Shown here piece after piece: positions 908-49,890 of a stretch of DNA of 64,000 nucleotides. Below the pieces are notes generated by a model. It was not told the DNA's origin. It saw nothing but the letters and a program-made list of their open reading frames with translations, and did no database searches. Numbering within the stretch: the stretch's first letter is position 1; every line of letters begins with the position of its first letter. The position numbers were made by a program, and so were the translations under genes. This stretch comes from an uncultured Oscillibacter sp. (GTDB lineage: Bacteria > Bacillota > Clostridia > Oscillospirales > Oscillospiraceae), in NCBI GenBank assembly GCA_950097265.1, contig CATNDJ010000006.1, forward strand, positions 11,767 through 75,766, read 5' to 3'.

Positions 908-3900
908 TCAACCGGCCAGATCCCGGTAGAGGTAGGTCACGATGTCCGCCCGGGGCGAACGGTTGGAGGGGTTGAAGGCGGTCCCGGCGCCGTCCAGCAG
1001 CCCGGCGGTGTCCGCCCAGGCCACGGCGTCGGTATAGTACTTGCCGGGATAGGAGGCGGCAAGGCCGCTGGAGCCGGAGGCGGCGGGCTTTCCGTTGGCC
1101 CGCCAGAGGAAGGTCACCACGTGCCCGCTGGTGCAGATGCCCGAGGGATTGAAGGAGGTGGCGGTGGTGCCGGTGGTAATCCCGTTCTCCTGGGCCCAGA
1201 GGATGGCCTTGTAGAAAGCGCTGGAGGCGGAGACGTCCTTGAAGGGATTGCTCTTGGTCTTGGGCTCCGGGGAGCCCTTGGCCCGCCAGAGGAAGGTCAC
1301 CACCTGGCCCCGGGTGCAGGTGGAATTGGGCTCGAACTGCGTGGCGGTGACGCCGGTGGTCACGCCCTTCTCCAGGGCCCAGCCCACCGCGTCGTGGTAG
1401 TAGGAGCCCGCGGGCACGTCGGTGAAGGGGGTAGAGCCGCCGGACGCCGTTCCGGGCTGAGCCGCAGTTCCGGCTTGGCTCCCCGCGCCTCCGCCGGTGG
1501 AGGTAAAGGCCCCGCTGGAGGCGTCAATGGAGTAGAAGGTGGGGACAGTGTCGTCATACCCGTTGGAACCGCCTCCGCCGGTGGCGTACCACACTACCTT
1601 GCCCCCCGCCAGGATGGGCTGGCAGTCGGAGAGATAAGCCTTAGCGGTCTGCACGGAACCGGAAGGACTGCCGGAACCGTCCAGGAAGACATAATTCAGG
1701 CTGTCGCTGTAGTAGTCGCTGGTTTTGGTGTTCCAAAGAGCCAGGAAACGGTCGCCGGACAGCTTCACCAGCTGGGGCGTATAGGCGTTGGCCCCCAGAG
1801 TAGAGGACTTGACGGCCCCGGCGCTGAAGGCGCTTTTGCTCACGGAGTAAGAGACAGCGCTCCGGCTTCCGGCTCCATAGTTGCCCACCGCCAGGTAGCT
1901 GGAGGAGGATTCCTCAAAACCGCCGAAGGAGGCATCGGTATTGTTCTGGCCGACGGCCCCTGGGAACTCCTTGAGCTTCACGTTGGCCGTGGGAGCGGGC
2001 TTGCCGTCGGAGCCCACGGTGTAGCGCACGGCGACGGCGGCCCGGGGATAGGCGTCGCCGTGGTCCAGGGTGACGATGGACCCGTCGGAGGCGGCTAGGA
2101 TGAATTCGTTGAAGGAGTGGGAGACATAGCCGGTGCCGATGTTGGAAACGCCGTAACGGGAGTAAATAATTTCCATATCGGACTCCCGGACGGCCATGGT
2201 AAGGTTGGCCTGGTGGTTCAGTCCATCGCTGGCCTTATACATCTGGTGGGCAGTGTGGACATACAGGTATCCGTTCAGCTCCGCACAGCGCAGAGAGCAG
2301 GAACGGAAAGGCACCGTGGTGTTGGCCCCCTTGAGGCTCGCTGCCCCCAGGCGTTCCCAGTCCTTGGAGTACTTCACCACCCGGACCACCTCCAGGCCGT
2401 CGTTCTGCCCGGGGTTGTCCTGACCAAAGATCAGGAAGTTATAGCCCCCGCCACAGTAAAAGCCTCCGAACTTGCTCAATTCCATGGGGATTCTTTTAGA
2501 AGTAAGCAGCTCAAAAGCGGGGCTGTAGACCTCCACGGCCACACCGTCCTTCACGGCCTCCACACGGGTGAGGTTCCCGTCGGAGCGCTGGTACAGGAAG
2601 GAGGTCATGGGGGCGCTGGCATAGCTGGAATAATTATTTTTATTCCGGTTTCCGCTGGCCGCCGCCTTGGCGGAAGAGTCCTTGCTCACGGGGGATTCTT
2701 TCGTCCCGCCCAGGGCGGCCACGCCCTCGGTTTTCACCTCGCCGCAGACGGAGCACGTCAGCGTCCGGGACCCGGCGCTGTCCGTTCCCGCCGCCGTAGA
2801 GCTGGTAACGGTAAACTTATGCTCCAGCTTGGGAACGGGATTCGTGGTCTGCTTCTCGCCGCAGACGGTGCAGGTCTGCACCGTGCCTCCCTCCTCCTTG
2901 CAGGTGGGGGCTTTATATTCGCTCTTCCACTTGTGGGCCGTCTTGGGAATCACTCGGGAAACCTGCTCGGTCCCGCAGACGGTACACGTCTGCACCACCT
3001 TGCCCTCGGCCTTGCAGGAGGCCTGAGCAGTACTGGTTTTCCATTTGTGGGTCTTGCAGGCGGTCTGGCCGCCGGTTTGATTCCCGGTCTGGTTGCCCGT
3101 TTGGTTTCCGGTTTGATTCCCGGTCTGGTTTCCGGTTTGATTCCCGGTTTGATTCCCAGTTTGATTCCCGGTCTGGTTTCCGGAGGACGAGCCGCTGGAG
3201 CCGGTCCAGGGAATGGTTTCAACCTTTGTTTCCCCGCACCCCGAGCAGTAGAACTTCCGCCAGCCGTCATTGTATTCGCTGGGCGGATAGTACTCTCTGC
3301 CGACGAAGGTGTGCTGGCCGGTCTTGGGGAGAATCAGCACCTGCTTCTCTCTGCACTTCACGCAGGTCTGATACTCTTTGCCGTCCTCGCCGCAGGTGGC
3401 CCTGCGAAGCGTGGTCGTTTCCCACACATGGTCGCAGGAGGCCGTCTGGCCGCCGCCCTGACTGCCGGAGTTCGACGTGGAGCCGGACCCGCTCCCGGAG
3501 GAACCGGCCCGGTACTCGAAGGTGCTGCCCCCGGGCTGGTGGGTGCCGTCCTCCCGCAGCGGAGGCACGGTCTCAATCACCTTAGCCCAGCAGACCTGGC
3601 AGGCCCAGACCTTCCGGCCCTCACGGTCCTCTTGGGCGTACATATTGTCCGTCAGCTTGTATACGTGGGTATGCCCGTCCTCGCCGGTGCTGTCAACGCC
3701 GGAGCCGGACCGTTGGTCCGGCGGACGGTTGTCGTCGCCGCAGCGGGAGCAGATGCCGTCGGAGCCGTAGTCGTGACCCAGGGCGCGCCCGCCGTTTTCC
3801 AGTTCCCAAGAGCCGATCGATTTGCCTGTAGCGCCGCAAGCGGGGCATTCCAGGTATATATAGCCGGTTTGGGTACATGTAGGCTGAACCGGCGTGCCTT

Positions 3901-4021
3901 CCATCACGCCGCCGCATCGGGGGCATTCGCTCTCATAGGCCGCCGCCGGGAGAGCGAGGGATACCGACAGCATCAGCGCCAGCGCCGCGGCTGTCAGCCG
4001 CTTACAAATTCTGCTTTTCAT
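908..4021 (-). CDS. S-layer homology domain surface protein with CxxC repeats and a GNQT linker
   Basis: The start is ATG 4021, preceded by AAGGAGGAGCAAC; an upstream in-frame start lacks a ribosome site. It encodes 1037 aa. The N-terminus is a Sec signal peptide (MKSRICKRLTAAALALML, cleavage near AAA-YES). Several 35-45 residue units follow, each with a C-x-x-C pair and a conserved C near a TCxxxG (for example CTVCGTEQ, CTVCGEKQ, CSVCGEV), split by a low-complexity GNQT linker. The central ~350 residues look like a repeated beta-strand domain. The last ~170 residues are three SLH modules (FTDVPAGSYYHDAVGWA, NPFKDVSASSAFYKAI, YYTDAVAWADTAG) that bind wall polymer pyruvyl groups. It is therefore a cell-surface protein. 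Its ligand is unknown. Confidence 0.88.
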   Translation of the reverse strand: MKSRICKRLTAAALALMLSVSLALPAAAYESECPRCGGVMEGTPVQPTCTQTGYIYLECPACGATGKSIGSWELENGGRALGHDYGSDGICSRCGDDNRPPDQRSGSGVDSTGEDGHTHVYKLTDNMYAQEDREGRKVWACQVCWAKVIETVPPLREDGTHQPGGSTFEYRAGSSGSGSGSTSNSGSQGGGQTASCDHVWETTTLRRATCGEDGKEYQTCVKCREKQVLILPKTGQHTFVGREYYPPSEYNDGWRKFYCSGCGETKVETIPWTGSSGSSSGNQTGNQTGNQTGNQTGNQTGNQTGNQTGNQTGNQTGGQTACKTHKWKTSTAQASCKAEGKVVQTCTVCGTEQVSRVIPKTAHKWKSEYKAPTCKEEGGTVQTCTVCGEKQTTNPVPKLEHKFTVTSSTAAGTDSAGSRTLTCSVCGEVKTEGVAALGGTKESPVSKDSSAKAAASGNRNKNNYSSYASAPMTSFLYQRSDGNLTRVEAVKDGVAVEVYSPAFELLTSKRIPMELSKFGGFYCGGGYNFLIFGQDNPGQNDGLEVVRVVKYSKDWERLGAASLKGANTTVPFRSCSLRCAELNGYLYVHTAHQMYKASDGLNHQANLTMAVRESDMEIIYSRYGVSNIGTGYVSHSFNEFILAASDGSIVTLDHGDAYPRAAVAVRYTVGSDGKPAPTANVKLKEFPGAVGQNNTDASFGGFEESSSSYLAVGNYGAGSRSAVSYSVSKSAFSAGAVKSSTLGANAYTPQLVKLSGDRFLALWNTKTSDYYSDSLNYVFLDGSGSPSGSVQTAKAYLSDCQPILAGGKVVWYATGGGGSNGYDDTVPTFYSIDASSGAFTSTGGGAGSQAGTAAQPGTASGGSTPFTDVPAGSYYHDAVGWALEKGVTTGVTATQFEPNSTCTRGQVVTFLWRAKGSPEPKTKSNPFKDVSASSAFYKAILWAQENGITTGTTATSFNPSGICTSGHVVTFLWRANGKPAASGSSGLAASYPGKYYTDAVAWADTAGLLDGAGTAFNPSNRSPRADIVTYLYRDLAG
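3063..3182 (-). repeat. In-frame 12-bp tandem repeat encoding (GNQT)9-GGQT
   Basis: Ten 12-bp units inside the S-layer gene encode Gly-Asn-Gln-Thr. The third codon positions differ between copies (ggtttgattccc, ggtctggttccc forms on the plus strand), so the peptide is kept while the DNA drifts. It links two CxxC blocks and is a likely site of length variation and glycosylation on Thr. Confidence 0.9.
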
Positions 4022-4149
4022 GTTGCTCCTCCTTCTTCTTTTGGGGCCGCCGCCCTCCCGGAGCCGCGTCCCTCTATAAAAGAAGTACCAATTCAAAGAC
4101 CGCAGGTTTTATTTTTTTGGGAAAAAATGAGACCATTTTCAGAAAACAG

Positions 4150-4198
4150 CAAAACGCCGAAAACCACCCGGTTTTCACAGGCAGTTTTCGGCGTTTTG
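4150..4198 (-). terminator. Terminator after the DUF624 gene
   Basis: 15-bp stem (4150-4164 with 4184-4198, AAAACGCCGAAAAC type arms) with a 19-base loop, just past the stop at 4215. T-rich bases at the end of the minus-strand arm fit an intrinsic terminator. The S-layer gene begins further down, so it needs its own promoter between 4149 and 4021; none was clear. Confidence 0.7.
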
Positions 4199-4214
4199 TA
4201 TGGCACAGGGCGGC

Positions 4215-4877
4215 TTACAGCCGCTTCAGTTCCGTCCGAATGAAGAACGCCCCCAGGAGGCAGGGCACGGAAAAGCCAATCAGCAGCAGATAAATCCCGC
4301 TGATGGGAAATTCCAGCACGGCGAAGACCAGGGACCCGTACACCGCCAGCGCCGCCAGCGCTCCCCGGAGGGGCCTCCCCGCCCCCAGGAGCAGGGACAG
4401 CCGCAGGCACTCCCGGAAACTCCGCTCCGTGGCCAGCAGTCCGTAAAGGTACGTGGAGGCCAGCAGGGTCAAAAGAAGCACCGTAGAGCACAGCATAAAG
4501 GGCAGGAGCAGCAGCGGCTGGGCCATCGCCCGGCTGAGGTAGAACCACACGCCGCAGCCGGAAAAAACCAGGGGGACCGCCACGGCGAAAAAAGCGGCGT
4601 AAGCTCTCCGCCACTCCTTTTTGAAAGCGGCCTTGTAGTGGTACAGCAGGGTCACCGGCTGGTCCAGGACCATCATCCGCGTCACGCGGCTCATGGAGAA
4701 AACCGCCGCCGGGATGGTGACCACGGGGAGGCAGCTTACCAAAAACAGCAGGTTCAGCTTCACCAGGGTGACGCACTCAATGGAAAAAATCTCCGCCAGG
4801 CGGGACACGCCTGTTTTCTCCGGCTCGTCCCGGTCCACGCCGGGCCCCGGTTTCGCGTAGTCCTTTCGGAAAAACAT
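4215..4877 (-). CDS. DUF624 (YesL-like) membrane protein
   Basis: 220 aa from ATG 4877. About five hydrophobic helices are visible (around residues 38-60, 90-112, 117-140, 158-178, 185-207) with charged linkers such as RVTRMMVL and KAAFKKEWRRAY. This matches DUF624/YesL proteins, typically encoded beside carbohydrate ABC transporters and YesMN systems. Their role is unproven. It is divergent from the msmK-like ATPase gene 217 bp away, which fits a link to sugar uptake. Confidence 0.8.
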   Translation of the reverse strand: MFFRKDYAKPGPGVDRDEPEKTGVSRLAEIFSIECVTLVKLNLLFLVSCLPVVTIPAAVFSMSRVTRMMVLDQPVTLLYHYKAAFKKEWRRAYAAFFAVAVPLVFSGCGVWFYLSRAMAQPLLLLPFMLCSTVLLLTLLASTYLYGLLATERSFRECLRLSLLLGAGRPLRGALAALAVYGSLVFAVLEFPISGIYLLLIGFSVPCLLGAFFIRTELKRL

Positions 4878-4921
4878 ACCCGTTCTCCTCCCGACCGTTT
4901 TCCTCGGTTGATTAAGTTTAT

Positions 4922-4950
4922 ACTATATCACACTCCGATTTTCGGCGCAA
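4922..4950 (-). promoter_or_regulatory. Promoter for the DUF624 gene
   Basis: Minus strand: TTGCGC, 17-base spacer, TATAGT, about 45 nt before ATG 4877. It is divergent from the ATPase promoter at 5034-5063. Confidence 0.6.
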
Positions 4951-5033
4951 GGGCGAGAATCTGACCTCCCGGGTAATTTTTTCGCCTGCCTGGAAAATGT
5001 CGCGTTTTTACCGCCGCCGTCGGGAATTTACCC

Positions 5034-5063
5034 TTGCCTTTTTCAGGGCGGCGGTGCTATGCT
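5034..5063 (+). promoter_or_regulatory. Promoter for the msmK-like ATPase gene
   Basis: TTGCCT, 18-base spacer, TATGCT, ending 31 nt before the start codon at 5095. Confidence 0.55.
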
Positions 5064-5094
5064 TTTGCCAAAATCACTGAGGAGGAGTTCCATC

Positions 5095-6189
5095 ATGGCC
5101 AGTATTACCTTCAAGCACGTAGAAAAGACCTATCCCGGCAACGTCACCGTCGTCCCCGATCTGAACCTGGAGATTCAAGACAAGGAATTTGTCATCCTGG
5201 TGGGCCCCTCCGGCTGCGGCAAGTCCACTACCCTGCGGATGATCGCGGGCCTGGAGGACATCACCAGCGGCGAGCTGTACATCGGCGACCGGGTGGTCAA
5301 CGACGTGGCCCCCAAGGACCGGGACATCGCCATGGTCTTCCAGAACTACGCCCTGTACCCCCACATGACCGTCTATAAAAACATCGCCTTCGGCCTGACG
5401 CTCCAGAAGATTCCCCAGGACGAGATCGACCGCCGGGTCCACGAGGCCGCCCGGGCCCTGGACCTGGAGCACCTGCTGAACCGCAAGCCCAAGGCTCTCT
5501 CCGGCGGCCAGCGCCAGCGGGTGGCCCTGGGCCGGGCCATGGTCCGCAACCCCGCCGTATTCCTCCTGGACGAACCCCTGTCCAACCTGGACGCCAAGCT
5601 GCGCACCGCCATGCGGGCGGAGATCAGCCGCCTCCACAAGCGCCTCCAGACCACCTTCGTCTACGTCACCCACGACCAGACGGAGGCCATGACCATGGGC
5701 GACCGGATCGTGGTCATGAAAAACGGAATCATCCAGCAGAACGACACCCCTCAAAACCTCTACGACTATCCCTGCAACCTCTTCGTAGCAGGCTTCATCG
5801 GCTCTCCTCAGATGAACTTCCTGGACGCCGTCATCGCCGAGGAGGGCGGGAAATTCATTGCCAAGACCTGCGGCGCCTCCATCGCCCTGCCGGAGCGGAT
5901 GGGGAAGGACGTCCTGGGCGCTTACACGGGCAAGACCGTGGTCCTGGGCGTCCGTCCGGAGGACGTGGACCCTGCTGTGGGTCAGAATTACGACCTGGAA
6001 GCCACCATTGAGATCGCCGAGCTCATGGGCGCGGAAACCCACCTGCACCTGGACTGCCAGGGAAGCAAGCTGGTGGTCAAGGCTCCCTCCAGCTATCCCG
6101 GCCGGGTGGGCGACGCCGCCAAGCTGACTTTGAACAAGGAGAAAATCCATCTGTTTGATAAGGAGACCGAACAGGCCATCGCCCACTAA
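5095..6189 (+). CDS. msmK: Carbohydrate ABC transporter ATP-binding protein (MsmK/UgpC type)
   Basis: 364 aa. ATG 5095 follows GAGGAGGAGTTCCATC; the longer frame from 5059 has no better site. Walker A GPSGCGKST (37-45), Q-loop in VFQNYALYPH, signature LSGGQRQRVALGRA (135-148), Walker B VFLLDE (155-160) and switch His193 in VTHDQTEAM are all intact. A C-terminal TOBE-like regulatory region follows. Such ATPases energise CUT1 sugar importers and are often shared between several systems. Neither importer in this window (7.46-10.5 kb and 55.9-59.1 kb) has its own ATPase, so this one could serve both. Confidence 0.93.
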   Translation: MASITFKHVEKTYPGNVTVVPDLNLEIQDKEFVILVGPSGCGKSTTLRMIAGLEDITSGELYIGDRVVNDVAPKDRDIAMVFQNYALYPHMTVYKNIAFGLTLQKIPQDEIDRRVHEAARALDLEHLLNRKPKALSGGQRQRVALGRAMVRNPAVFLLDEPLSNLDAKLRTAMRAEISRLHKRLQTTFVYVTHDQTEAMTMGDRIVVMKNGIIQQNDTPQNLYDYPCNLFVAGFIGSPQMNFLDAVIAEEGGKFIAKTCGASIALPERMGKDVLGAYTGKTVVLGVRPEDVDPAVGQNYDLEATIEIAELMGAETHLHLDCQGSKLVVKAPSSYPGRVGDAAKLTLNKEKIHLFDKETEQAIAH

Positions 6190-6211
6190 CTTTTCTCGAG
6201 AGAAAAGTTAG
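6186..6211 (+). terminator. Hairpin overlapping the msmK stop codon
   Basis: Nearly perfect palindrome ctaacttttct/agaaaagttag with a tight loop that includes the TAA stop at 6187-6189. No long U-run follows, so termination strength is doubtful; it may instead protect the 3' end. Confidence 0.5.
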
Positions 6212-6314
6212 CAAAAGAGCTTTATCGCGCTCTGGTTGTCCGGCGGAAAACCAAGCTGAAGCGACGGCAACGGAGATTCTTCTTTATCGGCGGCTGTTTA
6301 AACGGAGGTTTCGT

Positions 6315-7181
6315 ATGTCCCCACGCGCTCAAGAAAAGCGAGATATCTGCCCGGCGGCCCCGGGCCTCGCCGTCCAGGGGCTGCTGGTCCTGCCTTCCGC
6401 CCGTCTTCTGCCCCTCTCCGCCGGAGACCGCATCAACGGATACGGCCGGACGGGAGACTATATCCTCTCGGCGGCGGCGCAGGGAAACCTGACCGTTTCC
6501 GCCTACGACCACTATGCCCTGTTGGACGCCGGGCAGGCCTATCTGCTGGCGGAACCCGGGGAATATACCCTCCAGGCCGTCTCCGACGGGTTGTATTTTC
6601 TCCTCCAGCTCCGGGGCGAACTGGTGCCCCGGCTGCTGGCGGAGCGGCTGGCGGCGAAAAACACCCTGTTTCACGGCGGAGCGGCGGCGGTCCGGGAGGC
6701 GGCCATGTCCCTAGCGGTGCTGGAGGACGAGGGGGGCGAGGTCCCCGGCGAAACCGCCTCTTCCCTGGCCTATTCCATGCTGCTGAAGCTCCAGGCCCTC
6801 CCCACCGCCTTCCGTGTGGACGCCGGGTCTCCCCTGGTGGAGGCCGCCGTGGCCATCATTCAGGACGAGTTCCCCTTCCTGGAGGGCGTGGATGAGCTGG
6901 CCGAGCGGCTGGAGGTCTCCGCCGCCCACCTGGGCCGGGTGTTTACCAAGAAGATCGGCATTTCTCCCGGGAAGTATATCACCCGGGTGCGGGTGGAGTA
7001 CGCCAAGCTGCTGCTCCGGGACCCGGACACCACCATCGCCTACGTGGCCGAGGCCTCCGGCTTCGCCAACGCCAACTACTTCGCCAAGGTCTTCCGCCGG
7101 GAAACCGGCCTGTCTCCCACCGAATACCTGGCCGGCGCGCCCCGCCGCCCGGAAGAAAATATCCCGCATTTTGGTATATAA
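6315..7181 (+). CDS. AraC-family transcriptional regulator
   Basis: 288 aa, ATG 6315 after ACGGAGGTTTCGT. Residues ~15-110 form a cupin-like sensing domain. Residues ~190-280 hold two helix-turn-helix motifs: LAERLEVSAAHLGRVFTKK and the AraC signature region VAEASGFANANYFAKVFRR. It sits between the ATPase gene and the binding-protein operon and probably activates sugar uptake genes, perhaps from the AT-rich DNA at 7240-7400. The inducer cannot be read from sequence; an alpha-galactoside is the obvious guess. Confidence 0.88.
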   Translation: MSPRAQEKRDICPAAPGLAVQGLLVLPSARLLPLSAGDRINGYGRTGDYILSAAAQGNLTVSAYDHYALLDAGQAYLLAEPGEYTLQAVSDGLYFLLQLRGELVPRLLAERLAAKNTLFHGGAAAVREAAMSLAVLEDEGGEVPGETASSLAYSMLLKLQALPTAFRVDAGSPLVEAAVAIIQDEFPFLEGVDELAERLEVSAAHLGRVFTKKIGISPGKYITRVRVEYAKLLLRDPDTTIAYVAEASGFANANYFAKVFRRETGLSPTEYLAGAPRRPEENIPHFGI

Positions 7182-43311: not shown

Positions 43312-44571
43312 TTACCACACCAGCGTCGCGAAATAGTCCTCCAGCGTCTCCGCCCGGCGGATAAGCTCCACGCTTCCGTCCTCTCGGAAGAGCAGCTCCG
43401 CCGAGCGGAGCTTGCCGTTATAGTTGTAGCCCATGGAAAAGCCGTGGGCCCCCGCGTCGTGGATCACCAGCAGGTCCCCCATGTCCACCTTGGGCAGCAT
43501 CCGGTCCACGGCGAACTTGTCGTTGTTTTCGCAGAGGCTCCCCGCCACGTCGTACTTGTGGTCGCAGGGGGCCCCCTCCTTCCCCATCACCGTGATGTGG
43601 TGGTAGGCCCCGTACATGGCGGGGCGCATCAGGTTACAGGCGCAGGCGTCCACGCCGATATACTCCTTGTAGATGTGCTTTTCATGGATGGCCCGGGTGA
43701 CCAGATGGCCGTAAGGGGCCAGCATGTAGCGGCCCAGCTCCGTGTACAGGGCTGCGTCCCCCATGCCGGCGGGGACCAGGATTTCCTCGTAGGCCTTCCG
43801 CACGCCCTCGCCGATGACGGCGATGTCGTTTTCCGGCTCCTCCGGGCGGTAGGGCACGCCCACGCCGCCGGAGAGGTTGATGAAGGTGATCCGGCACCCG
43901 GTCTCCTCCTGGAGCTCCGCCGCCAGCTGGAAGAGGATGCGGGCCAGAGCGGGGTAATAGTCGTTAGACAGGGTGTTGGAGGCCAGGAATGCGTGGACGC
44001 CAAATTCCTTAACGCCCAGGTCCCGCAAACGCCGGAACGCCTCGCTGAGCTGGGGCCGGGTCATGCCGTACTTCGCGTCGCCGGGGGTGTCCATCACCTG
44101 CACGCCGTCCCGGCTCTCCCCCAGGGTGAAGACCCCGCCGGGGTTGTACCGGCAGCAGACTTTCTCCGGGACCTTCCCCAGGGCGCTTACCAGGGTGTCG
44201 ATGAGGGTAATATCGTCCAGGTTGATGATGCCCCCCAGGCGGGCGGCGGCCTGAAACTCCTCCTCCGTGGTGTTGTTGGAGGAAAACATGATCCCCGCTT
44301 CCCCGGTGATCCCGCAGCGCTCCGCCAGGGCCAGCTCCGCCAGGGAGGAGCAGTCGCAGCCGCAGCCCTCCTCGTGGAGGAGCTTCAAAATGGCGGGCGT
44401 CGGCGTGGCCTTGACGGCGAAGTACTCCCGGAAGCCGGGGTTCCAGGCGAAGGCGGCCTTCAGCCGCCGGGCGTTTTCCCGAATGCCCCGCTCGTCGTAG
44501 ATGTGGAAGGGGGTGGGATGCCGGGCGGCGATAGCCTCCAGCTTCTCTTTTGTGACAAAGGGTGTTTTCAT
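43312..44571 (-). CDS. lysA: Diaminopimelate decarboxylase
   Basis: 419 aa from ATG 44571 after GAGGTCGTTTT; the longer frame crosses the promoter. Fold III PLP enzyme with Schiff-base Lys in YFAVKATPTPAIL, HAFLASNTLSNDYY, NLSGGVGVPYRPEE, ELGRYMLAPYGHLVTR and VAGSLCENNDKFA. It makes lysine from meso-DAP. The sequence is of the divergent LysA subgroup; a related amino-acid decarboxylase is less likely given the neighbouring dap genes. Confidence 0.9.
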   Translation of the reverse strand: MKTPFVTKEKLEAIAARHPTPFHIYDERGIRENARRLKAAFAWNPGFREYFAVKATPTPAILKLLHEEGCGCDCSSLAELALAERCGITGEAGIMFSSNNTTEEEFQAAARLGGIINLDDITLIDTLVSALGKVPEKVCCRYNPGGVFTLGESRDGVQVMDTPGDAKYGMTRPQLSEAFRRLRDLGVKEFGVHAFLASNTLSNDYYPALARILFQLAAELQEETGCRITFINLSGGVGVPYRPEEPENDIAVIGEGVRKAYEEILVPAGMGDAALYTELGRYMLAPYGHLVTRAIHEKHIYKEYIGVDACACNLMRPAMYGAYHHITVMGKEGAPCDHKYDVAGSLCENNDKFAVDRMLPKVDMGDLLVIHDAGAHGFSMGYNYNGKLRSAELLFREDGSVELIRRAETLEDYFATLVW

Positions 44572-46519: not shown

Positions 46520-46752
46520 GGCAAAAGACGGAGAAGTGCGTGGTGACCTTCCGCACCACGGTGGGGGCCATGGCCATGGAGGCCGCCTGCAAGGCGGAGG
46601 GTCTGCCCGGGCGGCTGATCCCCGTGCCCCGGAGCATTACCGCGGGCTGCGGCCTGTGCTGGGCCGCGCCGCCGGACAGCCGGGAGGCCCTGGAGGAGCT
46701 GGTGATGGAACGGCGTCTGAACGTGGACGGCATTTACGCCGTCATTTTCTGA
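46516..46752 (+). CDS. DUF3343 putative Se/S carrier protein
   Basis: 78 aa, ATG 46516 overlapping the previous stop (ATGA). Small protein with a conserved GCGLCWA motif holding two Cys that could carry Se or S, plus VVTFRTTVGAMAMEAACK. DUF3343 genes occur with yedF and csd-like genes in Clostridia. Exact partner unknown. Confidence 0.88.
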   Translation: MRQKTEKCVVTFRTTVGAMAMEAACKAEGLPGRLIPVPRSITAGCGLCWAAPPDSREALEELVMERRLNVDGIYAVIF

Positions 46753-46773
46753 AAACGGAAGCGTCGAAAACGG

Positions 46774-46802
46774 TTGAAAACCGCCGCCGCAAATGGTATG
46801 AT
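46774..46802 (+). promoter_or_regulatory. Promoter of the SIR2-STAND gene
   Basis: TTGAAA, 17-base spacer, TATGAT. The predicted start near 46809 leaves only about 12 nt before ATG 46821. Confidence 0.65.
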
Positions 46803-46820: not shown

Positions 46821-49781
46821 ATGCGGGTGAGTGCGTTGGCCAATATAACGTTTTCGGAAATCATGGACTTTTATCCCGAGCACAACCGTTCCGTTTACGA
46901 GGATCTGAAGCGGGACTGCCAGGCCGGGCGGCTGATCCCCTTTGTGGGAGCGGGTCTTTCGGCCTTCTGCGGCTACAAGGGGTGGACAGCCGTACTGAGG
47001 GACCTTGCGGGGTACATATTCGCCGACGGCATCCGCGACGGCGTCCAGGAGCTGATTGAAAAAGGAGAGCTTCTCCAGGCCGCCCAGGACATCTACGACC
47101 ACTATCCCCGGATGCTAAAGGAGCTCCAGAAAATCTTTGATTACCGCAACATTCAAAACTGCGATCCCGCCAAGCTCTCCGCCTCCGCCGCGTACGTCCT
47201 GCCGTACCTGTTCCACAGCGGCCTCGTCATGACCACCAATTTCGACCGGGTGCTGGAGGAGGTCTACGACAAGGGCCGCGCGAAATTCGGCAACGTCCTC
47301 ACGCCTTACGACTGCGCCCTGCTGACCCAGGCCCGGCAGGGAAATCCCCACTGCCTCTTCAAGCTCCACGGCGACATCGGGCCGGAGGTCCACGACATTG
47401 ATCGCCTGGTGCTTACGAAGAACCAGTACGACAAGGCCTACGCCGGGCCCCTCATGCAGGAGCTGCCCCAGTGGTTCCAGAGCAAGCGGCTGCTGTTCCT
47501 GGGGTGCAGCCTGGCCTCCGACCGGACCATGGAGGTCCTCCGGCAGGTGACGGAGGAACAGCCCGGCCTGGACCATTACGCAATCCTTGGATGCCGCCCC
47601 GAAGACGTCCAGAGGCGGTGCGTCGAAATGGGGAAGCTGGGGATTTCCGCCGTTTTCTACCCCAATACACATTACGAAGCGGTTCGCGTCATCCTGGAGC
47701 GGCTGCTGGAGGAAACCGATTCCGCCGCCTATCAGGAACTGAACCTCGGCGTGAAAAAGTCCGCGCCCAGGGCGGAGCGCCGCTTCATGTACGACTCCGG
47801 CTACATCCCGTTTGTCGGGCGGAAGGAGGAGCTCACACAGTTGGAGGCCTTCTGCGAGGCTCCCGGGCCGGTCTCCTGGTGGGCCGTCTCCGGTCCCGGC
47901 GGCATGGGCAAGAGCCGCCTGGTCTATGAGTTTACAAACCGGCAGAGAGACGGCGGCTGGAAAGTCCTCTGGCTAAAGCACAGCAACTACGGCGAGCTGA
48001 CCCGTCAGCCCCTGCCCGCGGACCGCTGCATTATCGTGGCGGACGACGTTCAGGCCCATTTCCAGGCGGTGGGAAGCTGGATCGCCTCCGTGTCGGAGCG
48101 CCCCCGCAGCGAAAAGCTGAGGATTCTCCTGCTGGAGCGGGACGGGAAGGACCTGGACTCCGCCAAGTGGGCCGAGCTGCTGCTATCCGACTCCCCCTAT
48201 GAGGACACCATTTCCTCCAAGTGCTACCGCCCGGATTTCCTGGACCTGGGGCCCCTCCAGGACAACGAGCTAAAAGCCATCATGATGGATTTCGCCCAGG
48301 CTTCGGCGAAGCCCCTGGCGGGCGAGGAGCACGCGGACCGCCTGCTTCAGGCGCTGAAAAACATCGACGGTGAGCTGCAGAGGCCGATTTACGCCCTGGC
48401 CATCACGGACGCCTGGTGCGGCGGAAAGGACCCCACCCACTGGAACAAGGAGCAGGTCCTGGACGCCCTCATTAAGCGGGAATTAAAGTTTTACCACGAC
48501 CGGCTCCGAGCCCTGTCCGCCGACAGCGTTTCCAAGGAAATGCGCTCCGAGCTGGAAAACCTCTTGGCCCGCGCATGCTCAAGGTCCTTTCTGCCCCTGG
48601 ATGAAATCGCGGACGGCGAATACCCAAAGCTTCGCAAGCGGGCCGACAAGCTGGATCTGACGTTCCGGGAACTGCTTCAGCAAATAGGCGCCGCCCACAA
48701 AATCGAGGTCCATGTCATCATGACTGGTCCGGGAAATCCGCCGGAGGAAATGAAAATCTTAGAGGCGGTGGTCATGGATTGCCCGGATCTGGTCAAAGAG
48801 TATCTGGTTTTGTGGCAGGTTTTCGGGAAGGGGCAAACCGGGCTCCTGCTGCCGGAAAATTGGGACAACGATCCCATGCAGCTCCTCTTCCTTGGAAATG
48901 TTCTCCGAGACTACCCGGAAAAGCTGGCGGAACGCAGTCAAATCCTGGACGTCCTCTTTACGGGCCAGCCCAGTTCTGTATTTATGGCCGCCTTTTACGG
49001 CAAGCTTTTGTATGATATGACGGAACAGCTTCCCAAAACGACGGAGCAGGCGCTGGACCGACTGGAAAAGCTGTATGACCAGTTTTCCGGGGAAGAAGCC
49101 ATCGCTGTTGAATATGCAAAAGCGCTGGTCAACCTGTCGGTCAAACAGTCTCCGACAGACTGCGTCTCCACTGTAGAAAAACTGGACTCCCTGCGCAAAC
49201 AATTCCCGGAAAATGAGGGCTTTGTGGTGACCTATGCAGCCGGTTTAGCCGCTCCTCTTGAAGATCAAACTATGGAAGAACGCCTTCAGGCGATAGACAG
49301 CGTGAGGCTTCTGCATGAGCAGCTTCCAGAAAACTTGGGAGTTGCGGGCATATACGCAATCAGCTTAGTCATCTTAGCAAGTAAGCAGCCGCTGGAAGGA
49401 CAAATTTGCTGTATGGACAAAGTACGGCTTCTGCATAAGCAGTTTTCAGAAGATGAGCAGTTTGCCTCCGTATATTCCGACGGCTTGGTGAACTTGTCTT
49501 TTATGCAGACCGAAGAGGGCAAAACCCGAGAGAACGTAAAGCAGTCGGAAGAACTGTTCACACGGTATCCTCAGAACGTAGAAATACAGGAAAACTACGC
49601 CAAAACCCTGTTCAATCTGACGCTGAAGCAGGAGCCGGAGGCTCTGCGGCAGACGGTGGCGGAGCTCCGGGAGTTTCTCTCGGCCCATCCCGAGGCAAAT
49701 CAAGATTTCCAGGCTTCCCTGGATAGATATCTTGAGGAGCACCCGGAGCACGCGGAGCGTTACGCGGCCCTCAGGCTCTAA
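46821..49781 (+). CDS. SIR2 - STAND NTPase - TPR protein, probable single-gene antiphage defence (Avs-like)
   Basis: 986 aa. Residues ~30-300 are a SIR2-type NAD-binding domain: FVGAGLSAFCGYKGW (43-47 GAGLS), VMTTNFDRVLEEV (138-146), Leu-His-Gly-Asp with His183 in LFKLHGDI, and FLGCSLASDRTMEVL. Residues ~328-600 begin FVGRKEELTQLEAF and hold Walker A GPGGMGKS (358-365) and Walker B IIVADD (404-409), as in STAND NTPases. The C-terminal ~300 residues are helical ~40-residue TPR-like repeats (VRLLHEQLPENLG, VRLLHKQFSEDEQ). In known systems of this layout, repeats sense a phage protein, the NTPase assembles and SIR2 destroys NAD+. The start is uncertain: ATG 46821 lacks a good ribosome site; TTG 46836 follows GGTGAG. 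The 3' part is less GC-rich. Flanked by its own promoter and terminator. Confidence 0.88.
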   Translation: MRVSALANITFSEIMDFYPEHNRSVYEDLKRDCQAGRLIPFVGAGLSAFCGYKGWTAVLRDLAGYIFADGIRDGVQELIEKGELLQAAQDIYDHYPRMLKELQKIFDYRNIQNCDPAKLSASAAYVLPYLFHSGLVMTTNFDRVLEEVYDKGRAKFGNVLTPYDCALLTQARQGNPHCLFKLHGDIGPEVHDIDRLVLTKNQYDKAYAGPLMQELPQWFQSKRLLFLGCSLASDRTMEVLRQVTEEQPGLDHYAILGCRPEDVQRRCVEMGKLGISAVFYPNTHYEAVRVILERLLEETDSAAYQELNLGVKKSAPRAERRFMYDSGYIPFVGRKEELTQLEAFCEAPGPVSWWAVSGPGGMGKSRLVYEFTNRQRDGGWKVLWLKHSNYGELTRQPLPADRCIIVADDVQAHFQAVGSWIASVSERPRSEKLRILLLERDGKDLDSAKWAELLLSDSPYEDTISSKCYRPDFLDLGPLQDNELKAIMMDFAQASAKPLAGEEHADRLLQALKNIDGELQRPIYALAITDAWCGGKDPTHWNKEQVLDALIKRELKFYHDRLRALSADSVSKEMRSELENLLARACSRSFLPLDEIADGEYPKLRKRADKLDLTFRELLQQIGAAHKIEVHVIMTGPGNPPEEMKILEAVVMDCPDLVKEYLVLWQVFGKGQTGLLLPENWDNDPMQLLFLGNVLRDYPEKLAERSQILDVLFTGQPSSVFMAAFYGKLLYDMTEQLPKTTEQALDRLEKLYDQFSGEEAIAVEYAKALVNLSVKQSPTDCVSTVEKLDSLRKQFPENEGFVVTYAAGLAAPLEDQTMEERLQAIDSVRLLHEQLPENLGVAGIYAISLVILASKQPLEGQICCMDKVRLLHKQFSEDEQFASVYSDGLVNLSFMQTEEGKTRENVKQSEELFTRYPQNVEIQENYAKTLFNLTLKQEPEALRQTVAELREFLSAHPEANQDFQASLDRYLEEHPEHAERYAALRL
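49180..49640 (+). repeat. Degenerate ~120-bp (40-aa) tandem repeats in the SIR2-STAND gene
   Basis: Units with LDSLRKQFPENEG, VRLLHEQLPENLG, VRLLHKQFSEDEQ and SEELFTRYPQNVE recur about every 40 residues. The two middle copies are close at DNA level (gcttctgcatgagcag and gcttctgcataagcag, 120 bp apart), suggesting recent duplication in the presumed sensor region. Confidence 0.7.
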
Positions 49782-49854: not shown

Positions 49855-49890
49855 CCGTCCCCGCAGGTTACATGCGGGGACGGCTTTTTT
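49855..49890 (+). terminator. Terminator after the SIR2-STAND gene
   Basis: 11-bp stem ccgtccccgca/tgcggggacgg, 7-base loop, then a T-run. Confidence 0.9.

Follow-up and report, generated by a model that had tools for sequence, protein, structure and literature searches.

A probable SIR2-STAND antiphage receptor in an uncultured Oscillibacter and its family of 40-residue candidate sensor repeats

The repeats at the C-terminus of bacterial STAND receptors are known to recognise phage proteins; how does the specificity of these receptors evolve? That question is raised by a gene in a 64,000-nucleotide stretch of DNA (the window) from an uncultured Oscillibacter sp. of the Oscillospiraceae (GenBank assembly GCA_950097265.1, contig CATNDJ010000006.1, positions 11,767 to 75,766 of the forward strand), which encodes a protein with an N-terminal SIR2 domain, a STAND-type NTPase and a C-terminal repeat array. 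What would such a protein do, and how would it come to recognise new targets? We conclude that it is probably a single-protein, NLR-like (STAND) abortive-infection NADase receptor whose repeats bind the trigger, and that its new part is the repeat sensor. A first-pass annotation, made from the letters of the window alone, had proposed a stand-alone antiphage system related to Avs5 or DSR. The underlying observation holds, and defence is its likely reading: the architecture, the transcription unit, the accessory nature of the gene and the type of effector all stand, whereas the model scores and the type of NTPase do not support its filing with Avs5 or DSR.

The probable sensor comprises five two-helix units of 40 residues (120 bp), and an AlphaFold2 model places two helices per 40 residues from about residue 738 to 955, with per-residue confidence (pLDDT) mostly between 80 and 95. 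Unit number differs among the relatives (designated here by locus), with five units in the window and in L002, eight in L003, nine in L028 and eleven in L001. The final unit is conserved among the close relatives: that of the window has 65-71% DNA identity to its counterparts in L001, L002 and L003, and not to the one in L028. With the last unit omitted, mean DNA identity within the array is 0.76 in L003 (maximum 0.91), 0.69 in L028, 0.61 in L001, 0.57 in L002 and 0.48 in the window; at the residue level the window units are pairwise 18-40% identical overall and 25-40% among units 1-4, as against 62-85% among units 2-6 of L003. L001 and L002 are 91.6% identical across a 1.9-kb block, and what separates their arrays is an in-frame difference of exactly six units (240 codons, 720 bp), the units of L002 corresponding to units 1, 2, 9, 10 and 11 of L001, a comparison that does not itself give the direction of change. 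In L002 (7713-10202, + strand) unrelated sequence stands in place of the SIR2 part, while the NTPase and repeats remain in frame. Because its SIR2 part is lost, L002 is probably a decaying copy, and it reads as a truncated copy joined to unrelated sequence; an inverted N-terminus was rejected, since there is no credible SIR2 match inside L002 and the profile matches in that genome are confined to the NTPase and the repeats.

Variation within the unit is uneven. Positions 19, 22, 29, 30, 34, 37 and 38 are the most variable, and the variability profiles of three arrays are correlated (r 0.34, 0.46 and 0.65, reached by 154, 12 and 0 of 10000 permutations, respectively), a correlation also expected from the distinction between buried and exposed positions. 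The pooled ratio of non-synonymous to synonymous differences (pN/pS) is 0.46-0.62 among units versus 0.23-0.35 in the core. Positive selection across the whole unit was rejected since the ratio is below 1, and the raised value in the units is a mark of relaxed constraint and no proof of positive selection.

The first-pass annotation had noticed C-terminal repeats of about 40 residues, which the five units bear out, and had missed that these belong to a specific family of variable copy number that, by sequence comparison, is also joined to other N-termini and, on a phage contig, forms a free array. That the repeats arose by chance was rejected: in 220 shuffled proteins a model of the unit scored no domain above 8 bits, and it did not match the classical tetratricopeptide repeat (TPR) protein of L099. 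The model matches 53 of the 3727 open reading frames in the loci gathered, a set collected through related searches and overlapping in part, and the matches are STAND proteins or pieces of them, two viral-contig arrays, an array fragment at a contig end in genome G874 (L106, L111) and L121. The last of these (3320-6991, +) is encoded on a plasmid; DUF2971 lies close to its C-terminus, and its long array is built of similar 40-41-residue repeats of a different consensus. The repeat is rare in genomes: it is present in four of 400 genomes of the family, own included, always in SIR2-STAND proteins, and in three of 250 genomes sampled from the family to which L003's genome belongs, where it is carried by STAND proteins and by the G874 fragment, possibly the remainder of the L098 array.

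In two genomes the same NTPase-repeat chassis carries a different N-terminus. That of L098 (6974-8995, +), whose frame is still within the array when the contig ends, has two hydrophobic segments of membrane type, and that of L071 (4779-8798, +) has no Pfam match; the SIR2 profile matches neither protein. L098 aligns with the window protein over the NTPase and repeats (25% over 632 residues, E 3e-20), and L071 over the NTPase (33% over 126 residues) and likewise over the repeats. The free array is a 634-residue protein at L115 (4789-6693, +; viral contig IMGVR_UViG_3300031521_003269), made of 14 recognised units and little else, and lying upstream of genes for an HNH protein, a methylase/ParB protein, a terminase large subunit and a portal protein. 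On a second viral contig, L114 (5911-6645, +) has five or more units and is cut off by the contig end. This array may belong to the host, next to a prophage, because a tRNA-Cys separates it from the prophage recombinase, and its reading as a phage array was dropped on that account. The repeat scans of viral contigs, bounded by the peptide patterns used, found these same two contigs twice. A search of 50,697 phage records yielded nothing that matched the window protein (E 1e-10) or the L115 or L003 array (E 1e-5). Among plasmid records the window protein had three matches, confined to its SIR2 part, and the L115 array had two weak full-length ones (22% identity). PHROGs assigned no known defence family to the arrays or the window protein, nor did PADLOC to the L114 and L115 arrays.

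The N-terminal domain is well supported as SIR2, scoring 80.2 bits against Pfam SIR2_2 (cut-off 24.5), with GAGLS at residue 43, TTNFD at 138 and LHGD at 182, which makes the histidine His183. Asn140 of the second motif is invariant among ten SIR2 domains compared. The structural neighbours of the effector are NADases, the first deacetylase appearing only at row 49 of the list, so that the modelled fold is of NADase type; with Asn140 and His183 retained, the effector is likely of the antiphage NADase type that the annotation had named, and NADase activity itself is what we infer from it. The best PDB match by profile is FAM118B, through the SIR2 part (E 5.4e-14). FAM118A/B are described as vertebrate filament-forming sirtuins (PMC12700824), and the matched human chains (298 and 371 residues) differ in having neither NTPase nor repeats. 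At L099 (5603-8470, -) a related SIR2 domain is joined to a different P-loop NTPase (AAA_16, with NB-ARC below cut-off) and classical TPRs; the effector is therefore shuffled too.

The central part has FVGR at residue 331 and intact Walker A and B motifs, and falls just under the Pfam cut-offs for AAA_16 (31.7 versus 32.6 bits) and nSTAND_NTPase5 (PF25199; 32.3 versus 34), the latter being its nearest Pfam family. Relatives score 33.6 (P0003), 31.4 (L097), 27.1 (P0006) and 26.5 (P0004) on the same model, and P0007 clears it at 42.6 bits. No match of the window protein to nSTAND3 (PF20720) was found in the Pfam scan at E up to 1, and P0003 reaches 17.3 bits there against a cut-off of 27.2. The AlphaFold2 model, built on a four-row alignment, is poor over the SIR2 and NTPase parts, and the structural matches to the whole model are mostly generic helical repeats. 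The general STAND or NLR-like layout of effector, P-loop NTPase and C-terminal superhelical repeats is present, with NTPase scores just below cut-off and an NTPase fold that is poorly modelled.

Does this protein belong to a system already described? Membership of Avs5 was rejected at 15.9 bits on NCBIfam NF041814 (cut-off 1000) and 13.9 bits, over residues 176-235, on the PADLOC model. Membership of DSR was rejected at 11.3 bits on the Dsr1 model (cut-off 1400) and 25.4 bits on that of PADLOC, over residues 36-233 in the SIR2 part only; this comparison is with Dsr1 models, a DSR2 model not being among those listed. The window protein shares with Avs5 an N-terminal SIR2 domain of predicted NADase-type fold. 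It differs in its NTPase, the Avs5 proteins of PMC12931631 being reported to carry nSTAND3, and in its array, a specific 40-residue family of variable copy number, whereas a single TPR and a single Sel1 motif are described for PaAvs5-1. Matches to the SIR2 types of Thoeris ThsA and Lamassu LmuA end by residue 303. Lamassu (LmuA-SIR2) was rejected, the LmuA similarity covering residues 26-303 only and the adjoining genes encoding a Se/S carrier and a GH94 protein and no LmuB, a wider LmuB search not having been made; Thoeris was likewise rejected, with no SLOG domain in the Pfam scan and no TIR proteins in the adjoining genes, a wider ThsB search not having been made. A parallel in design is offered by fungal NLRs of the HET-D/E kind, which combine a STAND core, variable N-termini and number-polymorphic arrays whose units resemble one another (PMC4986451). 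The window family resembles them in its core, variable N-terminal domains and arrays of varying number, and differs in being bacterial and in having a SIR2 effector, another NTPase and another repeat; the window units, at 18-40%, lie below the high-internal-conservation threshold of at least 85% identity over at least 100 residues. Judged by titles and abstract openings, no publication was found that describes this architecture or repeat, a result that says nothing on other literature.

The gene itself appears to be a single-gene transcription unit, as had been proposed (Table 1). One promoter-like site was found where 0.8 would be expected by chance, and by eye the element is retained 5' of L003 and not 5' of L001. 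The region has seven terminator-like sites against 4.6 expected, that behind the gene having the most pairs, and by eye a hairpin with a T-run lies at a comparable position 3' of the L001 and L002 genes. The ATG lacks a clear ribosome-binding site; a GTG of L003 sits at the equivalent position, and the start is therefore supported. The 3' part is less GC-rich, as claimed (0.498 over 49000-49499 versus 0.61-0.63 over 47000-48499), and the neighbours are indeed unrelated: upstream lie genes for a class V aminotransferase and for a Se/S carrier, and downstream one for a GH94 protein.

Table 1. Features of the receptor gene (window positions)
Feature	Position	Strand	Details
SIR2-STAND-repeat protein gene	46821..49781	+	open frame, 986 aa
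Promoter-like site, sigma-70 type	46774..46802	+	TTGAAA, 17 nt, TATGAT, extended -10
SIR2 effector domain, aa 9-306	46845..47738	+	
Asn140 of TTNFD	47238..47240	+	pairs with Asn112 of ThsA (phmmer alignment to 6lhx)
His183 of LHGD	47367..47369	+	pairs with His152 of ThsA (phmmer alignment to 6lhx)
STAND-type NTPase and arm region, aa 322-735	47784..49025	+	limits approximate
Walker A, aa 358-365	47892..47915	+	GPGGMGKS
Walker B, aa 404-409	48030..48047	+	IIVADD
Five 40-aa (120-bp) two-helix repeat units, aa 746-946	49056..49658	+	probable sensor
Intrinsic terminator-like hairpin, T-run next	49855..49883	+	11 pairs

The gene is accessory. A full-length match is present in one of 86 genomes of the genus, its own, with weak partial matches in three others (42 of the 86, own included, are at least 90% complete). 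In the family sample eight of 400 genomes match at E 1e-20 or better, own included, four of which are those that carry the repeat; in the class sample four of 391 match at E 1e-40 or better, namely its own, G151, one match to the SIR2 part and one to the repeat part. The sampled family of L003's genome has matches in seven of 250 genomes, with all three parts in two (G867, G1040). The upstream selenium block is matched in 71 of the 86 genus genomes (E 1e-3, short matches counted). In all 29 same-genus loci fetched out of the 70 other genomes with such a match, homology runs out close to where the Se/S carrier gene ends (window 46703-46760); both the receptor gene and GH94 are absent behind the block (tails of 253 to 1500 bases), in keeping with an accessory gene without conserved synteny. 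In G073, of the same genus, the GH94 gene is present at 83% DNA identity and its upstream stretch is unlike the window, so there is no clean empty site. SIR2, NTPase and repeats are all present in L001, L003, L028, L010 and L097, the best segment of L003 being 57% identical to the window protein. A lysA-like stretch of the window (43314-44517) has a 78% DNA match at L001:9441-10641, just downstream of the L001 relative, and the two receptor genes lie at different spots despite this common stretch.

Some relatives lie beside defence genes. L003 is preceded by a type I restriction locus in which a recombinase accompanies two specificity genes, an arrangement that is likely phase-variable; in L003:1-7580 the tyrosine recombinase stands between the two specificity genes. 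Among six SIR2-only relatives in viral contigs, four (L116, L083, L118 and L119, with SIR2 genes near 4.6-5.8 kb) come directly after a gene that Pfam identifies as Methylase_S (HsdS), and HsdM or HsdR genes lie alongside. The fifth (L117, on the contig of L082; L082:4713-5873) follows an HsdS gene by eye, and the sixth (L120) does not. As far as these annotations go, a SIR2 gene inside type I restriction loci appears to be a recurring arrangement. Weighing against an antiphage role is that no defence neighbour was seen, as read, at the window, L001 or L028.

By comparison with STAND proteins that sense through TPRs (PMC6468293) and with Avs5 (PMC12931631), a ligand bound to the repeats would be expected to free the NTPase and lead to oligomerisation and activation of the SIR2 NADase. 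The array and NTPase would keep the resting receptor inactive until the C-terminal superhelix binds its trigger, probably a protein of a phage or other invader; nucleotide exchange and oligomerisation would then cluster the SIR2 domains and switch them on, and hydrolysis of NAD+ would halt growth before the invader multiplies. Recognition may evolve through recombination among the 120-bp units, by gain, loss or exchange, together with change at a few unit positions.

The same NADase receptor might instead answer to a trigger other than a phage protein, targeting plasmids or other mobile elements or guarding a host process. A TubZ gene near one relative (L097) suggests that a mobile element may use the gene against its competitors, the trigger of this receptor is not known, and a guard-like, indirect mode has been proposed for bNACHT25 (PMC12169576); but the Avs5 proteins of PMC12931631, likewise SIR2-STAND, are reported to respond to a phage protein, and we regard this alternative as rather unlikely. 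It is very unlikely that the window copy is an inactive relic that has lost sensing with a degenerate array. The low similarity among its units 1-4, set beside units 2-6 of L003, would fit such a history, but the frame is open, the catalytic and Walker residues are retained, core dN/dS against L001 is 0.21, promoter-like and terminator-like sites are present, and L002 illustrates what true decay in this family looks like. A housekeeping or regulatory protein, whether sirtuin-type deacetylase or MalT-like regulator, is hardly credible even though deacetylases are found among SIR2 domains and regulators such as MalT (see also PMC10427625) among STAND-TPR proteins, given the absence of a full-length match from 85 of the 86 genus genomes, the NADase-type neighbours of the effector and the lack of a DNA-binding domain among Pfam matches above cut-off.

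If, as we think probable, the window protein is an abortive-infection receptor, its wider family invites a bolder and unlikely proposal: a bacterial NLR family would combine a common NTPase and a recombining 120-bp repeat sensor with SIR2, membrane or other effectors, and free arrays 5' of phage terminase genes would act as decoys, either titrating the trigger or blocking the receptor. Such a role for L115 is speculation; if it were true, an arms race would be fought with copies of the receptor's own sensor, and the free array in a phage contig is a candidate counter-defence protein. With a sensor that varies by whole 120-bp units, on a chassis that carries different N-termini, the evolution of specificity in such receptors, which changes to the array may alter, becomes testable.
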